This document shows positions 51,686-58,624 of a stretch of 64,000 nucleotides of DNA, in pieces; the stretch's first letter is position 1, and the number at the start of each line of letters is the position of its first letter. This stretch comes from Nocardia sp. BMG111209 (lineage in GTDB: Bacteria > Actinomycetota > Actinomycetes > Mycobacteriales > Mycobacteriaceae), in contig NZ_KB907307.1 of assembly GCF_000381925.1 (NCBI RefSeq), forward strand, positions 1,550,001 through 1,614,000. The letters run 5' to 3'. Under the pieces are notes generated by a model. That model was not told the origin of the DNA, searched no databases, and worked only from the letters and a program-made list of their open reading frames with translations. The position numbers and the translations under genes were made by a program.

Positions 51686-52711
51686 TCAGGTCTGCTTCAT
51701 CGGCGCGTAGTCCTCGGCGGCGAGGTCGAAGGTCCAGGCGACGCCGGCGCGGGCGGTCTCGGTACCGGGCGGGACGCGCAGCCAGTAGGTGTGGTGGGTG
51801 CCGTCCGGTTCGGGGGTGGAGTTGACGACCTCGACCATGACGACGTCTTCGTCGTCGGGCATCGGGATGCGCCAGAGGATGCCGGTCTCGTCGCGGTGTA
51901 CCGGTTGCGCGCCGGATTCGGCGAGGTAGCGGTCGTAGCCGTAGTGCTCCAGCAGGACTCGGCGCAGCTCCGCGTTCTCCTCGTCGCGAATACGGGCGGG
52001 GGTGAGGCTGGGGAGTTCGGTGAGGAAGTCGGTGGGTACGGACATGCCGTGCCAGGCGTGCAGGGCGAAACCGTCGGGGAACAGTACGGCCGGGCCGTCG
52101 GCGGCGTGCAACCTGCCCGCCTCGTCGCGCAGCAGCCGCGACGGGCGTTCGCAGAGCACGACCGCGTGTTCGAACGGCCACCACCAGCCGGTCGCCCGCG
52201 CGACGGCCGCGAGGCCCGCCAATTGCCCGGCTCGGTCGTCGAAGGCCGCCAGCCAGGGGGCTTCGTGCTGGCCGAGTACGGCGTCCAGCAGGAGGCCGCG
52301 GACCTCGGCCTCGGCTACCGTCGCGTCGGCGTCGGCGTAGCGGGGTGATTCGAGCATCGCCGCCACCACACCGGCTCGCAGCCGGTCGGTGAGCATGCGG
52401 GTGGTGTCCCACAGGTGGGCTCCGGTCGCGTGCCACCGTTCGGTCCAGCCTGCCGGGCCGAGTTCGTCGTGCACTCGCCGGCGTTCGGCGGCCCACGGGC
52501 GGGTGCGGATGTCCTCGCGCACCGAGCGGCCGGGGGCCTCGAGGTCGGCGAGGGCGAGTACGCCGCTCAGCGGTGAGTCGGCCCAGACGAAGCGGGTGGG
52601 TTCGGCGAGGCCGGCCAGCCGATAGGCCTGCCGCACCGCGGTGTCGGCGGCCGCGCGGTCGGCGGGGCCGGTGGCGGCCGCGACGGCCCGCCAGGCGTCG
52701 ATGTCGGGCAT
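51686..52711 (-). CDS. DUF6745 domain protein
   Basis: A 341-residue protein matching DUF6745 by its C-terminal half: GPAVLFPDGFALHAWHGMSVPTDF, then LRRVLLEHYGYDRYLAESGAQPVHRDETGILWR and VEVVNSTPEPDGTHHTYWLRVPP. The N-terminal half is helical and rich in Ala, Arg and Trp. There is no signal peptide. The family is often found near STM4015-type repeat proteins in actinobacteria, as here. The 106-residue gene lies 41 bases upstream on the same strand, so the two form an operon. Function unknown. Confidence 0.75.
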   Translation of the reverse strand: MPDIDAWRAVAAATGPADRAAADTAVRQAYRLAGLAEPTRFVWADSPLSGVLALADLEAPGRSVREDIRTRPWAAERRRVHDELGPAGWTERWHATGAHLWDTTRMLTDRLRAGVVAAMLESPRYADADATVAEAEVRGLLLDAVLGQHEAPWLAAFDDRAGQLAGLAAVARATGWWWPFEHAVVLCERPSRLLRDEAGRLHAADGPAVLFPDGFALHAWHGMSVPTDFLTELPSLTPARIRDEENAELRRVLLEHYGYDRYLAESGAQPVHRDETGILWRIPMPDDEDVVMVEVVNSTPEPDGTHHTYWLRVPPGTETARAGVAWTFDLAAEDYAPMKQT

Positions 52712-52752
52712 GCTGAAACTCCTTGTGCAGTAGACGGATTCGGTGCGAGAGG

Positions 52753-53073
52753 TCAGTCGGCGACGATCCGGACGGCACCCGGCGTGTACTCGCGCTGCCG
52801 GACCACCCGGTACCAGCCCTTCGGCAGCACGATCGGCGCATGCTCCTCGTGCACCAGCCGCCCGCCTTCCGGCAGATGCAGCAGCCGGACCGACGGGTCC
52901 GAACGCAGCAGCCGCCCCGGCGCGGTCAGCGCGTGCGCGTGGCCGCTGACCTCGCCCAGCGCCAGCACCATGCGGCCGCGCGCGTCTCGCGGTTCACCCG
53001 GCGCCTCGCGCAGATGCCCCGGCACCGCTTCCTCGGCCATGGGCACGATCAGGACATCTCCCTGCCGAAACAT
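52753..53073 (-). CDS. small soluble protein of unknown function, partner of DUF6745
   Basis: A 106-residue strand-rich protein (MFRQGDVLIVPMAEEAVP, then RMVLALGEVSGHAHALTAPGRL and IVLPKGWYRVVRQREYTPG). ATG 53073 has GGGAGAG upstream and was chosen over the longer frame to 53097. It contains two His and no Cys. Similar small proteins are a usual neighbour of DUF6745 genes, to my knowledge uncharacterised. It is divergent from the STM4015 gene with a 10-bp inverted repeat between. Confidence 0.75.
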   Translation of the reverse strand: MFRQGDVLIVPMAEEAVPGHLREAPGEPRDARGRMVLALGEVSGHAHALTAPGRLLRSDPSVRLLHLPEGGRLVHEEHAPIVLPKGWYRVVRQREYTPGAVRIVAD

Positions 53074-53131
53074 GTTCTCTCCCTTCCCCGCCGTCACCCG
53101 TGTGCCGGCTCGAGGACGAACCTAGCGCGGG

Positions 53132-53182
53132 GGTCCGACAGTTCGCCACAGGCATGGAACCCCGGCCCGTGGCTGTCGGACC
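53132..53182. promoter_or_regulatory. inverted repeat in the divergent promoter of the STM cluster
   Basis: GGTCCGACAG (53132-53141) and CTGTCGGACC (53173-53182) are perfect 10-bp arms around 31 bases, with an inner CCAC/GTGG pair. It lies between the DUF6745-partner start and the STM4015 start, and may be an operator pair or a cruciform or RNA hairpin controlling both sides. Confidence 0.6.
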
Positions 53183-53261
53183 GGCTTGGTAGAAACGTCC
53201 CGATACCTCGGATCGGCCGGATCGTCACCGGCACCGACCTCGCCCCCAGGGAGCCTGCGAC

Positions 53262-54197
53262 ATGACCATTTCCGAGCACATGGAGACATTCCACGGTCTG
53301 CCGATCTTCGAATTCCCGGAGCCCGGCGAATCACCGGCGTTGCCCGCACCCGAGGCGGCGGCCTGGCGGATCTCGGTGTTCTACGACGCCGACGAAACCT
53401 GGCCGCAGGCCTTCGAACGCTTCCTCGCCGCGGTCGACCCCGCCCCGGTGCGGGCTCTGGTGATCGGCAACTGGGCCGACGAACCCGGCGAGGGCTCCGA
53501 GGATGTGGTCGCCGCGCTGGTCGCGGCGAAGGACCGGCTTCCCGCGCTGCGGGCGCTGTTCCTCGGCGACATCACCTACGAGGAGAGTGAGATCTCCTGG
53601 ATCAACCAGTCGGATGTCACGCCGCTGCTGGAGGCGTTCCCGGCGCTCACCGAATTCGGTGTGCGTGGCGGCGACGGCCTGGTGTTCCCGCCGATCACCC
53701 ACTCCGCGCTGCGCTCACTGAGCGTGGAGACCGGTGGACTCGGCGGCGAGGTGGTCCGCGGTATCGGGGCCAGCGACCTGCCCGCACTCGAACGCCTGGA
53801 TCTGTGGCTGGGCACGTCCTGGTACGGCGGCACGGCCACCGTCGCCGATCTGGAGCCGTTCCTGTCCGGCACGCGGCTGCCGCACCTGACCTCGCTGGGC
53901 CTGCACAACAGCGAGATTCAGGACGAGATCGCCGTCGCGGTCGCCGGCGCGCCGGTCGTGGCCCGGCTGTCCACGCTGGACCTGTCGATGGGCACGCTCG
54001 GTGATGTGGGTGCCGAAGCCCTGCTGGCGGGTCAGCCGCTGACCCACCTGCGCACGCTCGACCTGCACCATCACTTCATGACGTCGGCGATGGCCGATCG
54101 GGTGGTCGCGGCGCTGCAACCGGCCGGTGTCACCGTCGACGTCTCGGAGCCGGAGACCGCCGACGCCGAGAACCGCTACACCGCCGTCGCGGAATGA
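53262..54197 (+). CDS. STM4015 family leucine-rich-repeat-like protein
   Basis: A 311-residue protein of the STM4015 family. From about residue 90 it shows irregular leucine-rich repeats (LPALRALFLGDITYE, LRSLSVETGGLGGEV, LPALERLDLWLG, LPHLTSLGLHNSEI, LTHLRTLDLHHHFMT). The N-terminus (HMETFHGLPIFEFPE) is family-typical. LRR folds bind partners, so it may recognise a substrate protein of the pathway. GGGAG precedes ATG 53262. It is the first gene of the STM4015-4011 operon and overlaps STM4014 by ATGA. Confidence 0.85.
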   Translation: MTISEHMETFHGLPIFEFPEPGESPALPAPEAAAWRISVFYDADETWPQAFERFLAAVDPAPVRALVIGNWADEPGEGSEDVVAALVAAKDRLPALRALFLGDITYEESEISWINQSDVTPLLEAFPALTEFGVRGGDGLVFPPITHSALRSLSVETGGLGGEVVRGIGASDLPALERLDLWLGTSWYGGTATVADLEPFLSGTRLPHLTSLGLHNSEIQDEIAVAVAGAPVVARLSTLDLSMGTLGDVGAEALLAGQPLTHLRTLDLHHHFMTSAMADRVVAALQPAGVTVDVSEPETADAENRYTAVAE

Positions 54198-55375
54198 CCA
54201 TGTCGGATTCGGCGGAGGTCGACCGCGGCGCCACTACGGCCGGGCCGCAAGGGAACTCGGCACTGCGCCTCGCGCTGATCGGTAATCCGGAGAACCGGCG
54301 GGTCACCCTGTTCCAGGATGCACTGAGCCGGGCGGGCCGCCCGCCGGCCCGGGTGGTCGCCTGGCACGAAATACTGTCCGGCCGTGCCGAATTCCGCCCG
54401 GGAGAGCTGGTACGGCTCGACTCACCGGGCGAGAATCCGGCGGTGGACGCGGCGCTGCGCGGTGTCGCGGATCCGGTCCGCGCGGAAGGCACCGCGCTGT
54501 GGTACGAGCGATTCCTTGCCGCCGCTCGATTCGCCGCCGACCGCGTAAATGATTGCGGCGCACGCCTGCTCGACGATCCGGACGAGCTCGCCGTGCTCTT
54601 CGACAAACGCCGTTGTCATGCCATGTTGTCCGATGCCGGTGTGCCGGTACCGTTCTCGCCGACCTCCGGGGTGGCCGCGCCGGTGCGCGGCTGGGCCGAT
54701 GTCCGGCAGTTGATGGCCGCCGCGGGGATGCGCCGGGTATTCGTCAAGCTCGCGCACGGCTCGTCCGCGTCCGGCGTGCTGGCGGTGGAGACCGCGAGCG
54801 GTGGCCGGGTGCAGGCGACCACCTCGGTGGAACGCGACGAGCGAGGCCGGTTGTTCAATTCGCTACGGGTGCGCCGGTATACGACCGAGGCCGAGGTCGC
54901 CGCGATCGTCGACGCGCTGGCCCCGGACAACCTGCACGTGGAACGCTGGCTGCCCAAGGCGTCGCTGCACGGGCGCAGCGCCGATCTGCGGATCGTCGTG
55001 GTCGGCGGCCGCGCGACCCACGCGGTGGTGCGGACCGGCCGATCACCGATGACGAATCTGCACCTCGGCGGCGCACGCGGCGACCTGGCCGCGGCGCGCC
55101 TGGCGATCGAGAGCGCCGGCGCCCGCTGGTCCGAGGTGCTCACACTGTGCGAGCGCGCAGCGGCGTGCTTCCCCGGATTCTCGCGGGTGGGTGTCGACCT
55201 GCTTCCCGTCATCGGCTGGCGGCGGTTCGCGATCGGCGAGGTCAACGCCTTCGGCGATCTGCTGCCGGGCCTGAACGGACTGCCCGGCACCGGCGCCGAA
55301 CACGGCGACGCCTACGACGCGCAGGTCGCGGCGATCGTCCGCCGCTCCGGAAACGAGCGCTCACATGCCGCCTGA
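54194..55375 (+). CDS. STM4014 family ATP-grasp-like protein
   Basis: A 393-residue protein of the STM4014 family. An N-terminal domain (LRLALIGNPENRRVTLFQDAL) precedes an ATP-grasp-like part: MRRVFVKLAHGSSASGVLAVE, HVERWLPKASLHGRSADLRIVVV, and GVDLLPVIGWRRFAIGEVNAFGDLLPG, the last with the metal-binding Glu/Asn of ATP-grasp enzymes. Such enzymes form C-N bonds by acyl-phosphate activation. Substrate unknown. ATG 54194 overlaps the STM4015 stop; its own end overlaps the longest STM4013 frame by 11 bases. Confidence 0.85.
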   Translation: MTMSDSAEVDRGATTAGPQGNSALRLALIGNPENRRVTLFQDALSRAGRPPARVVAWHEILSGRAEFRPGELVRLDSPGENPAVDAALRGVADPVRAEGTALWYERFLAAARFAADRVNDCGARLLDDPDELAVLFDKRRCHAMLSDAGVPVPFSPTSGVAAPVRGWADVRQLMAAAGMRRVFVKLAHGSSASGVLAVETASGGRVQATTSVERDERGRLFNSLRVRRYTTEAEVAAIVDALAPDNLHVERWLPKASLHGRSADLRIVVVGGRATHAVVRTGRSPMTNLHLGGARGDLAAARLAIESAGARWSEVLTLCERAAACFPGFSRVGVDLLPVIGWRRFAIGEVNAFGDLLPGLNGLPGTGAEHGDAYDAQVAAIVRRSGNERSHAA

Positions 55376-56333
55376 GTATTCGGCACCGGATCCCGGCCGA
55401 CGCATAGATCCTGCTGCGCAACAGGATTCGGCCGATCACCCGGACCTCAGCAGGCAACCGGACATGAACGACGTGCCGGACCCCAGCGGGCAGCCGGACA
55501 TGAACGACGTGATCGGCCGCGACGACCTGCTGTTCGTCACCCTCGACACGCTGCGGTACGACGTGGCCACGGAACTCGCCGCGGCCGGCCGACTACCCAC
55601 CCTGAGCCGAAACCTGCCCGATGGCAGATGGGAAAAGCGCCACGCCCCGGGCAATTTCACCTACGCCTCGCATCACGCCATGTTCCAGGGGTTCCTGCCC
55701 ACCCCCGCCACACCCGGCCCGCATCCGCGGCTGTTCGCGGCGCGATTCGCGGGCAGTGAGACCACGGTGGGCCGCACCTTCGTCTACGACGCTCCCGACC
55801 TGGTCGCCGCGCTGGCCGCCGCCGGGTATCACACCGCCTGCATCGGCGGCGTGGGCTTCTTCAACAAGCAGAGCGAGGTCGGCTCGGTGTTGCCGGGCCT
55901 GTTCCGGGACAGTCACTGGGAGCCGGCGTTCTCGGTCGCATCTCCCGGTTCGTTCGACGCTCAGATCGACTGTGCCGAGCGCATCGTGGCCGCGTTGCCC
56001 GCGCAACGCCGACTGTTCTTGTTCGTGAACGTGTCCGCGCTGCACCAGCCCAACTGGTTCCACCTGCCCGGCGCCACCGCGGCCACCGGCGATACCCGCG
56101 AAACCCATGCCGCCGCACTGATTCACATCGACGACCGGATCGGCCGGCTGTTCGCCGCCGCGAGCAGCCGGCGCCGCTGCTTCGCCATCGTGTGCTCGGA
56201 CCACGGCACCGCCTACGGCGACGACGGGTTCACCGGTCACCGGCTCGGCCACGAATCGGTGTGGACGGTGCCCTATGCCCACTTCTTCCTCGAACCGGCC
56301 GCGCCCGCGCGGCCGCAACCCGGAGCGGTATGA
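55365..56333 (+). CDS. STM4013/SEN3800 family hydrolase (alkaline-phosphatase superfamily)
   Basis: A member of the alkaline phosphatase/sulfatase superfamily. The metal motif DLLFVTLDTLRYDVA stands near residues 53-66, GNFTYASHHAMFQGFLP holds the likely nucleophile Thr/Ser, and FAIVCSDHGTAYGDDGFTGHRLGHESVW holds the second metal site. The frame from ATG 55365 gives 322 residues with a Pro/Asp-rich N-terminus containing a duplicated 12-residue unit; ATG 55500 (MNDVIGRDDL) gives 277 and fits the core domain. The stop overlaps STM4012 by ATGA. Substrate unknown, probably a phosphate or sulfate ester. Confidence 0.85.
   Translation: MPPEYSAPDPGRRIDPAAQQDSADHPDLSRQPDMNDVPDPSGQPDMNDVIGRDDLLFVTLDTLRYDVATELAAAGRLPTLSRNLPDGRWEKRHAPGNFTYASHHAMFQGFLPTPATPGPHPRLFAARFAGSETTVGRTFVYDAPDLVAALAAAGYHTACIGGVGFFNKQSEVGSVLPGLFRDSHWEPAFSVASPGSFDAQIDCAERIVAALPAQRRLFLFVNVSALHQPNWFHLPGATAATGDTRETHAAALIHIDDRIGRLFAAASSRRRCFAIVCSDHGTAYGDDGFTGHRLGHESVWTVPYAHFFLEPAAPARPQPGAV
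55440..55511 (+). repeat. 36-bp tandem duplication at the STM4013 N-terminus
   Basis: Two adjacent 36-base units (55440-55475 and 55476-55511) differ at few positions and encode PDLSRQPDMNDV and PDPSGQPDMNDV. Each ends in a potential ATG start, so the duplication adds a second start codon in frame. Confidence 0.85.
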
Positions 56334-57709
56334 GAACCGTTGACGCACAGCCATACCGGAGTAACCCGAACGGATTGCACATGACCACGATCCTCCGCAC
56401 CCGCCCCTACCAGGGATACGTGTACGGCTATCCGCACAAGACGGCCTACCGGCCGCTCACCGACCGGCCGTCGCTGCGCGACCTCTGGGCGGGCGAACCG
56501 ACGGATGCGCTCTCGCTCTACGCGCACATACCGTTCTGCGAATATCGTTGCGGCTTCTGCAATCTGTTCACCCGGGTCGGCGCGCCGGACGGTCTGGTGG
56601 AGCGCTATCTGGATGCCCTCGACCGCCAGGCCATCGCGGCGCGCGCGGCCCTCGGCGACCACGGTCCGGTGCGTTTCGCGACGGCGGCCTTCGGCGGCGG
56701 CACCCCCACCTTCCTCACCGCCGCCGAACTGGATCGGTTGTGCGACATCGCCGAACGCCGGATGGGCGCGGATCTGCGATCGATCCCGCTGTCGGTGGAG
56801 ACCTCGCCGGCCACCGCGACCGCGGACCGTCTCGCCGTGCTCGCCGATCGCGGCGCGACCCGGATCAGCATCGGCGTGCAGAGTTTCCTCGACGCCGAGG
56901 CGCGCGCGGCGGTGCGACCGCAACGGCGCGCGGAGGTCGAGGCGGCCCTCGACCGGATCCGCGCCGCACGCATCCCGGTCCTCAACATCGACCTGATCTA
57001 CGGCATCACCGGCCAGACCGAGCGGACCTGGCGCACCTCACTGGACGCCGCCCTGGCCTGGCAACCGGAGGAGCTCTACCTGTACCCGCTGTACGTGCGG
57101 CCCCTGACCGGGCTGAGCCGCCACGACACCGAGGCCGACTGGGACGAACAGCGCCTGCGCCTGTATGCCGCCGGCCGTGACCATCTGCTCGCGCACGGCT
57201 ACCGGCAGCTCTCGATGCGCATGTTCCGGCGCGCGGACGCCCCGGACGCCGGCCCCGGTGACCATCGCTGCCAGACCGACGGCATGGTCGGACTGGGCTG
57301 CGGCGCGCGTTCCTACACCGGCCGCCTGCACTATTCGTTCGACTACGCGGTGGCCCCGCGCGAGGTCCGCGGCATCATCGACAGTTACACGCACGCAACG
57401 GATTTCACCGAAGCGACCGTCGGCTACCGAATCACCGCCGACGATGCGCGCCGCCGCTACCTGCTGCAATCCCTGCTCCAAGCCGAGGGGATGGACGTCG
57501 CGGCCTACCGGGCACGGTTCGGCGCGGCACCGCACGAGCACTTCCCTGCCGAACTGGCCGAATTCGAGGCGGCCGGCTGGCTCGATCCCGCAGCGGGTCC
57601 GGACCTGCTGAAGCTGAGCCCCACCGGTCTCGCCCACTCCGACGCACTGGGCCCGCGCCTGTTCTCACCCGCGGTGCGCGCGGCGATGACCGCCTACGAA
57701 CCGAGGTGA
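56330..57709 (+). CDS. STM4012 family radical SAM protein
   Basis: A 459-residue radical SAM enzyme of the HemN/HemW-like group. The cluster motif is PFCEYRCGFCNLF (C70, C74, C77), followed by FGGGTPTFL, a SAM-binding glycine motif, RISIGVQSFLD and a C-terminal HemN-like domain (GYRITADDARRRYLLQSLLQAEG, then EFEAAGWL and LKLSPTGLAHSD). STM4012 is not the heme enzyme itself; its substrate is not known. ATG 56330 overlaps the STM4013 stop; ATG 56381 is an alternative. The end is three bases from STM4011. Confidence 0.9.
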   Translation: MRTVDAQPYRSNPNGLHMTTILRTRPYQGYVYGYPHKTAYRPLTDRPSLRDLWAGEPTDALSLYAHIPFCEYRCGFCNLFTRVGAPDGLVERYLDALDRQAIAARAALGDHGPVRFATAAFGGGTPTFLTAAELDRLCDIAERRMGADLRSIPLSVETSPATATADRLAVLADRGATRISIGVQSFLDAEARAAVRPQRRAEVEAALDRIRAARIPVLNIDLIYGITGQTERTWRTSLDAALAWQPEELYLYPLYVRPLTGLSRHDTEADWDEQRLRLYAAGRDHLLAHGYRQLSMRMFRRADAPDAGPGDHRCQTDGMVGLGCGARSYTGRLHYSFDYAVAPREVRGIIDSYTHATDFTEATVGYRITADDARRRYLLQSLLQAEGMDVAAYRARFGAAPHEHFPAELAEFEAAGWLDPAAGPDLLKLSPTGLAHSDALGPRLFSPAVRAAMTAYEPR

Positions 57710-57712
57710 CCC

Positions 57713-58624
57713 GTGGACCTCACGATCCTGTACCGCGGCCCGCTGGCCTCCTGCGATTACGACTGTCCCTATTGCCCTTTCGCCAAACGCCGCGACAGTC
57801 GCGAGCAACTGCGCGCCGACCGCGCCGCACTGGACCGCTTCGCCGACTGGGCCTCGGCCCAGCACGACGACCGGCTGTCACTGTTGTTCACCCCGTGGGG
57901 CGAGGGCCTGGTCCGGTCCTGGTACCGGCAGACCCTGGTCCGCCTGTCGCATCTGCCGCACATCCGGCGCGTCGCGATCCAGACCAACCTGAGCGGCCGC
58001 ACCGGCTGGCTGGCGGAGGCCGACCGCGACACGCTGGCGCTGTGGTGCACGTACCACCCCGGCCAGACCCCCTACGAGCGCTTCGCCGGAAAGTGCGCCG
58101 ACCTGGCCCGCCGCGGCATCCGCTTCAGCGTCGGCGTGGTGGGCCTGCCCGAACACCTGGACTCCGCCCGGCGCCTGCGCGCCGACCTGCCCGAGCACGT
58201 GTACCTCTGGGTGAATGCCCCCGAAGGACAACAGCTTTCGGACGCCGACGCTGCCGCGTGGACGGAACTCGATCCCCTCTTCGAATACAGCCTTCACCCG
58301 CACCGATCGGCCGGACTACCTTGCCGCACCGGCGAATCGGTGATCTCGGTCGACGGCGAGGGCACCGTCCGGCGGTGCCACTTCGTCCGCGCGGAACTCG
58401 GCAATCTCTACGACGGCTCGTACCGCGCGAACCTCCGCCCGCGTCCCTGCCCGGCCCAACTGTGCGACTGCCACATCGGCTACGTGCACCTGGAGACGCT
58501 GCCGCTGTACGACGTGTTCGCCGGCGGCGTACTCGAACGCATCCCGCAGCACTGGCCGGACACAACCGGACCCGTCCAGGCTGGACACCACAACTCCACA
58601 GCGGCACTGAGGATCTCTCGGTGA
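57713..58624 (+). CDS. STM4011 family radical SAM protein
   Basis: A 303-residue radical SAM enzyme. The cluster motif is SCDYDCPYCPFAK (C14, C18, C21), and the TIM-barrel part includes FTPWGEGLVRSW and IQTNLSG. Near the C-terminus extra cysteines occur (LPCRTGESVISVDGEGTVRRCHF and CPAQLCDCHIG), the pattern of an auxiliary iron-sulfur site as in SPASM-type peptide-modifying enzymes. GTG 57713 lies three bases after STM4012. It is the last gene of the operon. Substrate unknown. Confidence 0.9.
   Translation: MDLTILYRGPLASCDYDCPYCPFAKRRDSREQLRADRAALDRFADWASAQHDDRLSLLFTPWGEGLVRSWYRQTLVRLSHLPHIRRVAIQTNLSGRTGWLAEADRDTLALWCTYHPGQTPYERFAGKCADLARRGIRFSVGVVGLPEHLDSARRLRADLPEHVYLWVNAPEGQQLSDADAAAWTELDPLFEYSLHPHRSAGLPCRTGESVISVDGEGTVRRCHFVRAELGNLYDGSYRANLRPRPCPAQLCDCHIGYVHLETLPLYDVFAGGVLERIPQHWPDTTGPVQAGHHNSTAALRISR

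Follow-up and report, generated by a model that had tools for sequence, protein, structure and literature searches.

What do the STM4011-STM4015 genes do, and on which molecule do they act? The question is raised by positions 51,686 to 58,624 of a 64,000-nucleotide stretch of Nocardia sp. BMG111209 (contig NZ_KB907307.1; the whole stretch is called the window), drawn from a genome of 9.14 Mb, in which the five genes stand opposite a DUF6745 gene and the gene of a 106-residue partner. The nearest named locus found was that of Nocardia aurantia, with 85% identity in STM4014. The initial annotation of this DNA had read the seven genes as one radical S-adenosylmethionine (SAM) modification pathway, with the leucine-rich repeat (LRR) protein STM4015 as a possible substrate binder and a precursor peptide to be sought nearby. 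Our analysis supports a radical SAM modification system of uncharacterised function, but not the separate precursor or the single seven-gene unit, and the emphasis on a binder is probably wrong. STM4015 is probably itself the substrate or carrier, because it carries a conserved C-terminal Glu tail and adjoins a ligase resembling LysX, ArgX and RimK. The features on which this proposal is built are as follows.

53262..54197, plus strand: STM4015 family LRR protein, 311 aa, isoelectric point (pI) 4.35; NF038076, 393 bits (cut-off 275); relative in the PDB, 2RA8
54174..54194, plus strand: C-terminal tail RYTAVAE of STM4015; codon of the terminal Glu at 54192-54194, the proposed conjugation site
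54194..55375, plus strand: STM4014 family ATP-grasp ligase, 393 aa, pI 9.12; NF038074, 449 bits (cut-off 175)
55365..56333, plus strand: STM4013/SEN3800 family hydrolase of the alkaline-phosphatase/sulfatase fold; NF038075, 409 bits (cut-off 250); Pfam Sulfatase, 27.3 bits
56330..57709, plus strand: STM4012 family HemN-like radical SAM enzyme; NF006067, 638 bits (cut-off 380); Radical_SAM and HemN_C domains
57713..58624, plus strand: STM4011 family radical SAM enzyme; NF038073, 418 bits (cut-off 200); five extra invariant C-terminal Cys

All seven genes were found where they had been placed, and their family assignments held, with all five STM4011-STM4015 proteins exceeding the curated NCBIfam cut-offs (5/5) and DUF6745 matching PF20530 at 365 bits. 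The translational chaining first noticed was likewise recovered, with an ATGA overlap between STM4015 and STM4014, a candidate STM4012 start at ATG 56330 that overlaps the STM4013 stop (the other candidate being 56381), and a gap of 3 nt between STM4012 and STM4011. The five genes are a genuine chained gene set, the order of which is constant from Nocardia to Salmonella. As the initial annotation had supposed, no published function for STM4011-STM4015 or DUF6745 was found in the open-access literature, and the names 2RA8, SEN3800 and Q64V53 had no match there; nor did any of the titles listed for combinations of the component families point to work on the system. The mentions found, in the portions of text available, were STM4013.S, tabulated among sigma-54 sites, and STM4015, which appears in a selection table. 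The family names are likewise non-functional, four of the five NCBIfam families being typed 'hypoth_equivalog' or 'subfamily' and STM4012 being named merely as a radical SAM protein.

STM4015, whose closest solved relative is 2RA8 from Bacteroides fragilis, is laid out as an LRR part, a variable acidic linker, a short hydrophobic tail and a final Glu. Homologue searches gave 240 listed proteins (the best 120 of 3,439 matches and the best 120 of 235), and Glu is the last residue in 235 of these; five (P0139, P0145, P0146, P0193 and P0199) were dropped because their endings look truncated, mis-framed or part of another protein. The terminal Glu was also present in 40/40 representatives of clusters formed at 60% identity from 365 sequences, was invariant across 69 chosen sequences, and closed 129 of the 130 STM4015 open reading frames (ORFs) of the fetched loci and the window. 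Position -2 was Thr, Ala, Gly or Ser in 235/235 tails and position -6 was Tyr in 160/235, so that the final residue alone is invariant while the neighbouring ones vary, ranging from RYTAVAE in the window to RYVAVSE in many Streptomyces, YPMLTE in many metagenome proteins, MNAMYTE in Salmonella and WRYVALGE in Deinococcus. As controls, the ends of STM4014, STM4013 and STM4011 were not conserved (≤2.1 bits per position), with STM4012 intermediate. The possibility that the tail is an artefact of the ATGA overlap was rejected, since 58 of 59 non-overlapping STM4015 genes still end in Glu. Within the 9.14-Mb genome the codon pattern of the tail occurred once and its reversed control not at all, and no other protein of this genome with an STM4015-type tail was found with the one codon pattern searched.

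The tail also follows several STM4015 copies out of the operon. The same tail is kept in off-operon, WGR-fused and N-terminally extended copies, a WGR domain being present in 13 of the 120 homologues listed from one search. Co-occurrence was surveyed for STM4011, STM4013, STM4014, STM4015 and DUF6745 in 61 genomes of one Streptomyces-like genus, a label given because the operon DNA of three of them is 79-80% identical to named Streptomyces loci. Among these genomes, STM4015 copies reaching the profile end co-occur only with STM4014. Four off-operon copies from genomes with the operon elsewhere (L109-L112) retain the tail, as does an Embleya off-operon copy (L092) with an STM4012 match elsewhere on the same record. 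Three others (L105, L106 and L107) are without it; L105 comes from G124, the sole genome of the 61 with STM4015 and no STM4014, and the operon copies in the genomes of L106 and L107 keep the tail.

The idea that STM4014 ligates onto this Glu came from the conserved terminus, before any structural comparison was available. The AlphaFold 2 (AF2) model of STM4014 then gave ArgX and LysX, the LysW ligases, and RimK as its best structural matches (figures from the top structural rows, with rows <1 Z apart taken as tied), whereas by sequence it scored 22.8 bits against the RimK family TIGR00768, below the cut-off of 143.4. Its conserved residues include K185, R280 and N351. We consider it moderately probable that STM4014 conjugates something to the C-terminal Glu of STM4015, and we hold with equally moderate confidence that STM4015 is an LRR scaffold whose last residue is the attachment point of the pathway. 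In such a first step, the acidic STM4015 would dock with the basic STM4014, which with ATP would activate the terminal Glu carboxylate (the gamma one, by analogy) and join it to an amine, like LysX/ArgX on LysW and RimK on S6. That STM4014, like RimK, does no more than extend the STM4015 C-terminus by Glu or other amino acids, giving a regulatory tag, while the radical SAM enzymes have other substrates, appears improbable; it leaves unexplained why two radical SAM enzymes and a hydrolase are kept in the operon across Actinomycetota, Deinococcota, Pseudomonadota and Bacillota.

Several observations weigh against conjugation at the terminal Glu. One Streptomyces STM4015 copy (L019), the exception among the 130 ORFs, ends in Ala. 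Two of the three tail-less copies sit in ligase-bearing genomes (G130 and G135), and L105 and L107 have a common alternative ending, so these copies may represent one old branch. A Calothrix off-operon STM4015, N-terminally extended, keeps the tail although it is the only operon family found on 11 kb. The tail is not disordered in the AF2 model (mean predicted local distance difference test, pLDDT, of 87 for residues 301-310 and 84 for residue 311), and may pack on the LRR part. The C-termini of DUF6745 and of the 106-aa protein are conserved too, 64 of 66 distinct DUF6745 tails ending in T, for which the cause may be structural. As for the ligase, the predicted fold match does not settle the substrate, with D-cycloserine synthetase (22.1 Z), glutathione synthetase (21.4), PPIP5K kinases (21) and D-Ala ligases (about 20) as close runners-up. 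The GSWGR motif, with which LysX/ArgX recognise the EDWGE end of LysW according to the available part of PMC10433800, is absent from the window STM4014 and from 120/120 other STM4014 proteins. Finally, no peptidase was found within the operon, whereas carrier systems finish by a release step.

The ordered tail, the conserved C-terminus of DUF6745 and the usual partner-binding role of LRR proteins would all suit a docking peptide. STM4014, STM4011 or some other partner would then recognise the terminal Glu without a covalent bond, and modification would fall on a different residue of STM4015 or on a third protein. We regard this as unlikely, given that invariance is confined to the C-terminal residue, with its free carboxylates, while the tail neighbours vary, and that the adjoining ligase resembles enzymes acting on terminal Glu.

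If STM4014 does conjugate the tail, the remaining enzymes would act on what it has attached, and our confidence in each of these later steps is lower than in the conjugation. In a second step, the two radical SAM enzymes might remodel the tethered group or the tail. STM4012, in which CX3CX2C is invariant in 15 chosen sequences, is HemN-like and could methylate or form C-C bonds. STM4011 would bring a Cys set like that of an auxiliary cluster; the extra C-terminal cysteines seen at the outset were confirmed as five, and together with CX3CX2C all eight are invariant in 16 chosen sequences from Actinomycetota, Deinococcota, Alpha- and Gammaproteobacteria, Bacillota and Bacteroidota. The set of three plus five is reminiscent of the SPASM pattern, and no SPASM model matched in Pfam or NCBIfam. 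In a third step, STM4013, joined in some bacteria by a HAD phosphatase, might strip a phosphate or a similar group. D61, T99, D279, H280, H292 and H296 of STM4013 are invariant in 15 chosen sequences, which fits a metal-dependent enzyme of the alkaline-phosphatase fold. Because the operon is without a peptidase, we lean slightly towards a product that stays on STM4015.

Those SPASM-like cysteines, the appearance of the graspetide ligase PsnB among the Foldseek matches of the STM4014 model, and the Tyr frequently found at position -6 would also be compatible with a ribosomally synthesized and post-translationally modified peptide (RiPP) of graspetide type. There the tail would be a core peptide behind an LRR leader, the Glu would enter a lactam or lactone made by STM4014, and crosslinks in the tail, for example at Tyr, would come from the radical SAM enzymes. 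This appears slightly less likely still than the docking peptide, as the tail is without an invariant nucleophile (four residues, Thr, Ala, Gly and Ser, occur at position -2, and some tails have no Tyr at -6) and no protease or exporter gene was found inside the operon in the regions inspected (Deinococcus, Methylobacterium, Paenibacillus, Salmonella and E. coli). The separate precursor peptide that had been suggested was sought as ORFs of 20-160 aa within the gene set and up to 2.5 kb around it at 88 loci, and none was convincing. Short-ORF families reach 63/88 loci, mostly downstream of the operon, and in a narrower zone (from the 106-aa gene to STM4015, or 600 bp past STM4011; 83 loci) the widest families occupy 30 loci after STM4011 and 24 loci on the reverse strand of the promoter region, so that next to the operon no family exceeds 30/83 loci. 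These families are probably shadows of conserved neighbouring DNA.

The hydrolase bears on a further alternative. A Cof-type HAD hydrolase gene follows the operon in Salmonella and E. coli, and a HAD gene lies downstream of it in Deinococcus taeanensis too. In addition, an STM4013 relative of 47-52% identity belongs to another conserved gene group (L150-L154, from G119, G156, G133, G145 and G155), whose members, named by eye, are another radical SAM protein, a P-loop kinase-like protein, a protein of ~170 aa starting with MLNPI and, in four of five cases, a NUDIX-like protein. The kinase-like and NUDIX-like company of this relative hints at phosphorylated small molecules, and together with the HAD gene after the operon in Salmonella and E. 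coli might suggest that the soluble enzymes make a free small molecule, with STM4015 as regulator or chaperone. We judge this the least probable of the alternatives, for it leaves the conserved terminal Glu unexplained.

Some further relatives were set aside. STM4012-like genes of ~31% identity on plasmids of Rhizobium tropici (L081 7950-10267) and Cupriavidus taiwanensis (L088 7893-10228) were left out because no other operon gene is annotated nearby; both are paired with a class I methyltransferase, and the R. tropici gene lies near cbb3 oxidase genes. The S. venezuelae radical SAM gene vnz_31145, which is induced by mitomycin C and likened by its authors to enzymes repairing UV thymine cross-links, was not used. 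No convincing match to anti-phage defence systems was obtained with PADLOC, in which STM4012 matched PDC-M51A weakly (22 bits, E 1.5e-5).

The gene set is widely distributed. The five-gene order is identical in Deinococcus (three strains), Methylobacterium, Paenibacillus, Salmonella and E. coli (plasmid and E. coli records), and the intact operon was seen in four bacterial phyla and a decayed version in a fifth. A 3.8-kb Salmonella stretch from STM4015 to STM4012 matched one site each in 154 of 5,426 complete E. coli genomes; in one strain inspected, the E. coli STM4015 (L091 5001-5848) is annotated as frameshifted. The decayed operon lies on a Bacteroides finegoldii plasmid (L089 8838-11778), with STM4013 as a fragment, STM4012 not found and STM4011 fused to a HAD-like domain that resembles a Cof-type HAD hydrolase.

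Among the 61 genomes, STM4014 exceeded its cut-off in 21 (with a fragment in G126), STM4015 in 23, STM4011 in 23 and STM4013 in 25, in 21 of which it lies together with STM4014. The lower-scoring off-operon form of STM4013 is the sole one in G119, G133, G145 and G156 and a second copy in G155, while G101 has two STM4013 pieces below the cut-off and G126 none at the stricter E-value. Exceptions to the co-occurrence of STM4011, STM4014 and STM4015 were G124, with STM4015 alone, and G114, with a truncated STM4011. In the latter (L155, G114:C3:703000-722000), the truncated gene adjoins a 27-residue remnant of the DUF6745 C-terminus, a relic that looks like the loss of the entire cluster between the two remnants. 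The divergent pair on the other side of the promoter region consists of two genes.

51686..52711, minus strand: DUF6745 protein, 341 aa; PF20530, 365 bits over residues 137-341; conserved C-terminus YxPxxQT
52753..53073, minus strand: 106-aa conserved partner of DUF6745, start ATG at 53073; paired with DUF6745 in Deinococcus, Methylobacterium and Skermanella

DUF6745 was detected at E <1e-113 in 17 of the 61 genomes, every one of them an operon genome (17/22 operon genomes); the operon genomes without it were G023, G109, G123, G139 and G153, and three further genomes carry distant forms only. The pair is not annotated next to the operon in Paenibacillus, Salmonella, E. coli or Bacteroides finegoldii, and it occurs with no operon within 5 kb in Deinococcus ficus and Skermanella. 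The expectation that all seven genes travel together is thus borne out by the set of five, but no more than in part by the DUF6745 pair, which is missing from some operon genomes and also stands alone. We count two units among the seven genes, the operon of five and the DUF6745 pair as its frequent companion. For the 106-aa partner, neither Pfam (at E 0.05) nor NCBIfam (at E 0.01) yielded a matching model. Within 51686-53073 of the window, DUF6745 partly matches phrog_31813 and the 106-aa protein phrog_27831, both phage families of unknown function. By eye, leucine-rich repeats seem to precede the DUF6745 domain in Deinococcus (L082 9200-10201) and Methylobacterium (L083 2974-3996), and none are apparent in the Nocardia protein.

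The two units are separated by a divergent promoter region that carries a candidate site in each direction.

53119..53140, minus strand: RecA-NDp (PafBC-type) promoter-like site towards the 106-aa gene and DUF6745, TGTCGGACCCCCGCGCTAGGTT
53174..53195, plus strand: RecA-NDp (PafBC-type) promoter-like site towards STM4015, TGTCGGACCGGCTTGGTAGAAA

An 8-mer, TGTCGGAC, was first considered as operator and rejected, being present in only 5/76 regions; its scarcity moved the search to a looser RecA-NDp-like motif. The relaxed pattern, TGTC[AG]G[TA][GC]-N8-TA, was settled after the sequences had been seen. It occurs towards STM4015 in 73 of 76 intergenic regions, towards the 106-aa gene in 70 and in both directions in 70, compared with 1/7,823 background pieces. 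The 80 loci used here as a locus set were picked by STM4014 similarity and are nearly all from Streptomyces and Nocardia. The pattern TGTCRGWSN8TANNNW was counted 66 times in this genome (G000) and its reversed form 14 times; two of the 66 sites are at this locus. The ORFs downstream of the first 30 sites were viewed (2/30 being this locus), and seven repair-like ones were picked and scanned over their first 260 residues, giving RecA, UvrA, UvrB, UvrC, PolA, LigA and an AAA ATPase that we take to be RarA-like. Only RecA and UvrC passed the full-length cut-off, the other five being strong partial matches. Three further operon loci (L093, L108 and L113) carry the site, L113 having one before each STM4015 copy. 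Among the off-operon copies, it lies upstream of three of the five with a tail (L110, L111 and L112); the other two tailed copies, L109 and L092, and all three tail-less copies lack it.

RecA-NDp promoters are reported in Streptomyces in the available part of PMC5087735, and the actinomycete system is probably induced by DNA damage, as predicted from these motifs. Some evidence speaks against such induction. The strict published consensus, tTGTCRgtg-8 nt-TannnT (given in the part seen of PMC5656591), is present in 8/76 regions on the 106-aa side and in 0/76 on the STM4015 side, where the site mostly reads TAnAnC (TAGAAA in the window) instead of TAnnnT. Moreover, the accessible text of PMC9380542 describes the PafBC motif of M. 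smegmatis as seemingly not conserved in S. venezuelae. No DNA-damage box is claimed upstream of the operon in Salmonella, E. coli, Paenibacillus, Deinococcus, Methylobacterium or Bacteroides, which were read by eye.

Taking tail and promoter together, a bolder version of the proposal, which we hold tentatively and think rather doubtful, is that STM4015 is permanently armed. With a group built by radical SAM chemistry on its C-terminal Glu, it would act as a modified LRR effector in the response to stress or DNA damage, several paralogues would be modified in trans by a single operon, and DUF6745 with its partner would be co-regulated accessories. If so, the attached group would count as a protein prosthetic group of a new kind, and the actinobacterial response to DNA damage would gain a new arm. 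What is new here is STM4015 as the probable substrate, which turns a functionless gene set into the question of what sits on the last Glu and whether STM4014 adds it.

Compared with known systems, the proposal stands near RimK and ribosomal protein S6 glutamylation in the predicted RimK fold of STM4014. The acceptor of RimK is likewise a protein C-terminal Glu, but STM4014 would have a dedicated LRR substrate within one operon with radical SAM enzymes. Graspetides of the PsnB and microviridin type share the ATP-grasp ligase (the PsnB match). Their ligase acts on an acidic side chain, and their core peptide combines a conserved Glu or Asp with a Thr, Ser or Lys partner, whereas the STM4015 tail is without a conserved nucleophile and a separate precursor was not found. 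In pearlin (PEARL) systems ligation is tRNA-dependent and the carrier is a short peptide, in contrast to the ATP-grasp ligation and LRR scaffold proposed for the STM system. Their product is built while tethered to a carrier peptide, as described in the available part of PMC9303977, and the like is proposed here for STM4015. The PafBC/RecA-NDp regulon is approached by a motif near tTGTCRgtg-N8-TAnnnT on both divergent promoters, those of STM4015 and the 106-aa gene, and the proposal, if true, might tie tethered chemistry to the actinomycete DNA-damage response. Amino-group carrier systems (LysW/ArgW with LysX/ArgX; Vzb22) share a carrier that ends in Glu after a small residue (EDWGE in LysW; xTE, xSE, xAE and xGE in STM4015; PMC10433800 and PMC9303977, as far as their text is available). 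The ATP-grasp enzyme encoded beside STM4015 may be of LysX/ArgX type; the predicted model of STM4014 matches this fold, and its sequence lacks GSWGR. The carrier systems differ in that no release peptidase is seen in the STM operon, and in that two radical SAM proteins, together with a hydrolase of the alkaline-phosphatase fold, take the place of LysZ/Y/J/K-type enzymes there. LysW is small, zinc-binding and ends in EDWGE, whereas STM4015, at roughly 280-370 aa, belongs to the LRR proteins and has the tail RYTAVAE in the window; if the proposal is true, carrier-style tethered chemistry would extend beyond small LysW-type carriers to an LRR scaffold served by radical SAM enzymes.

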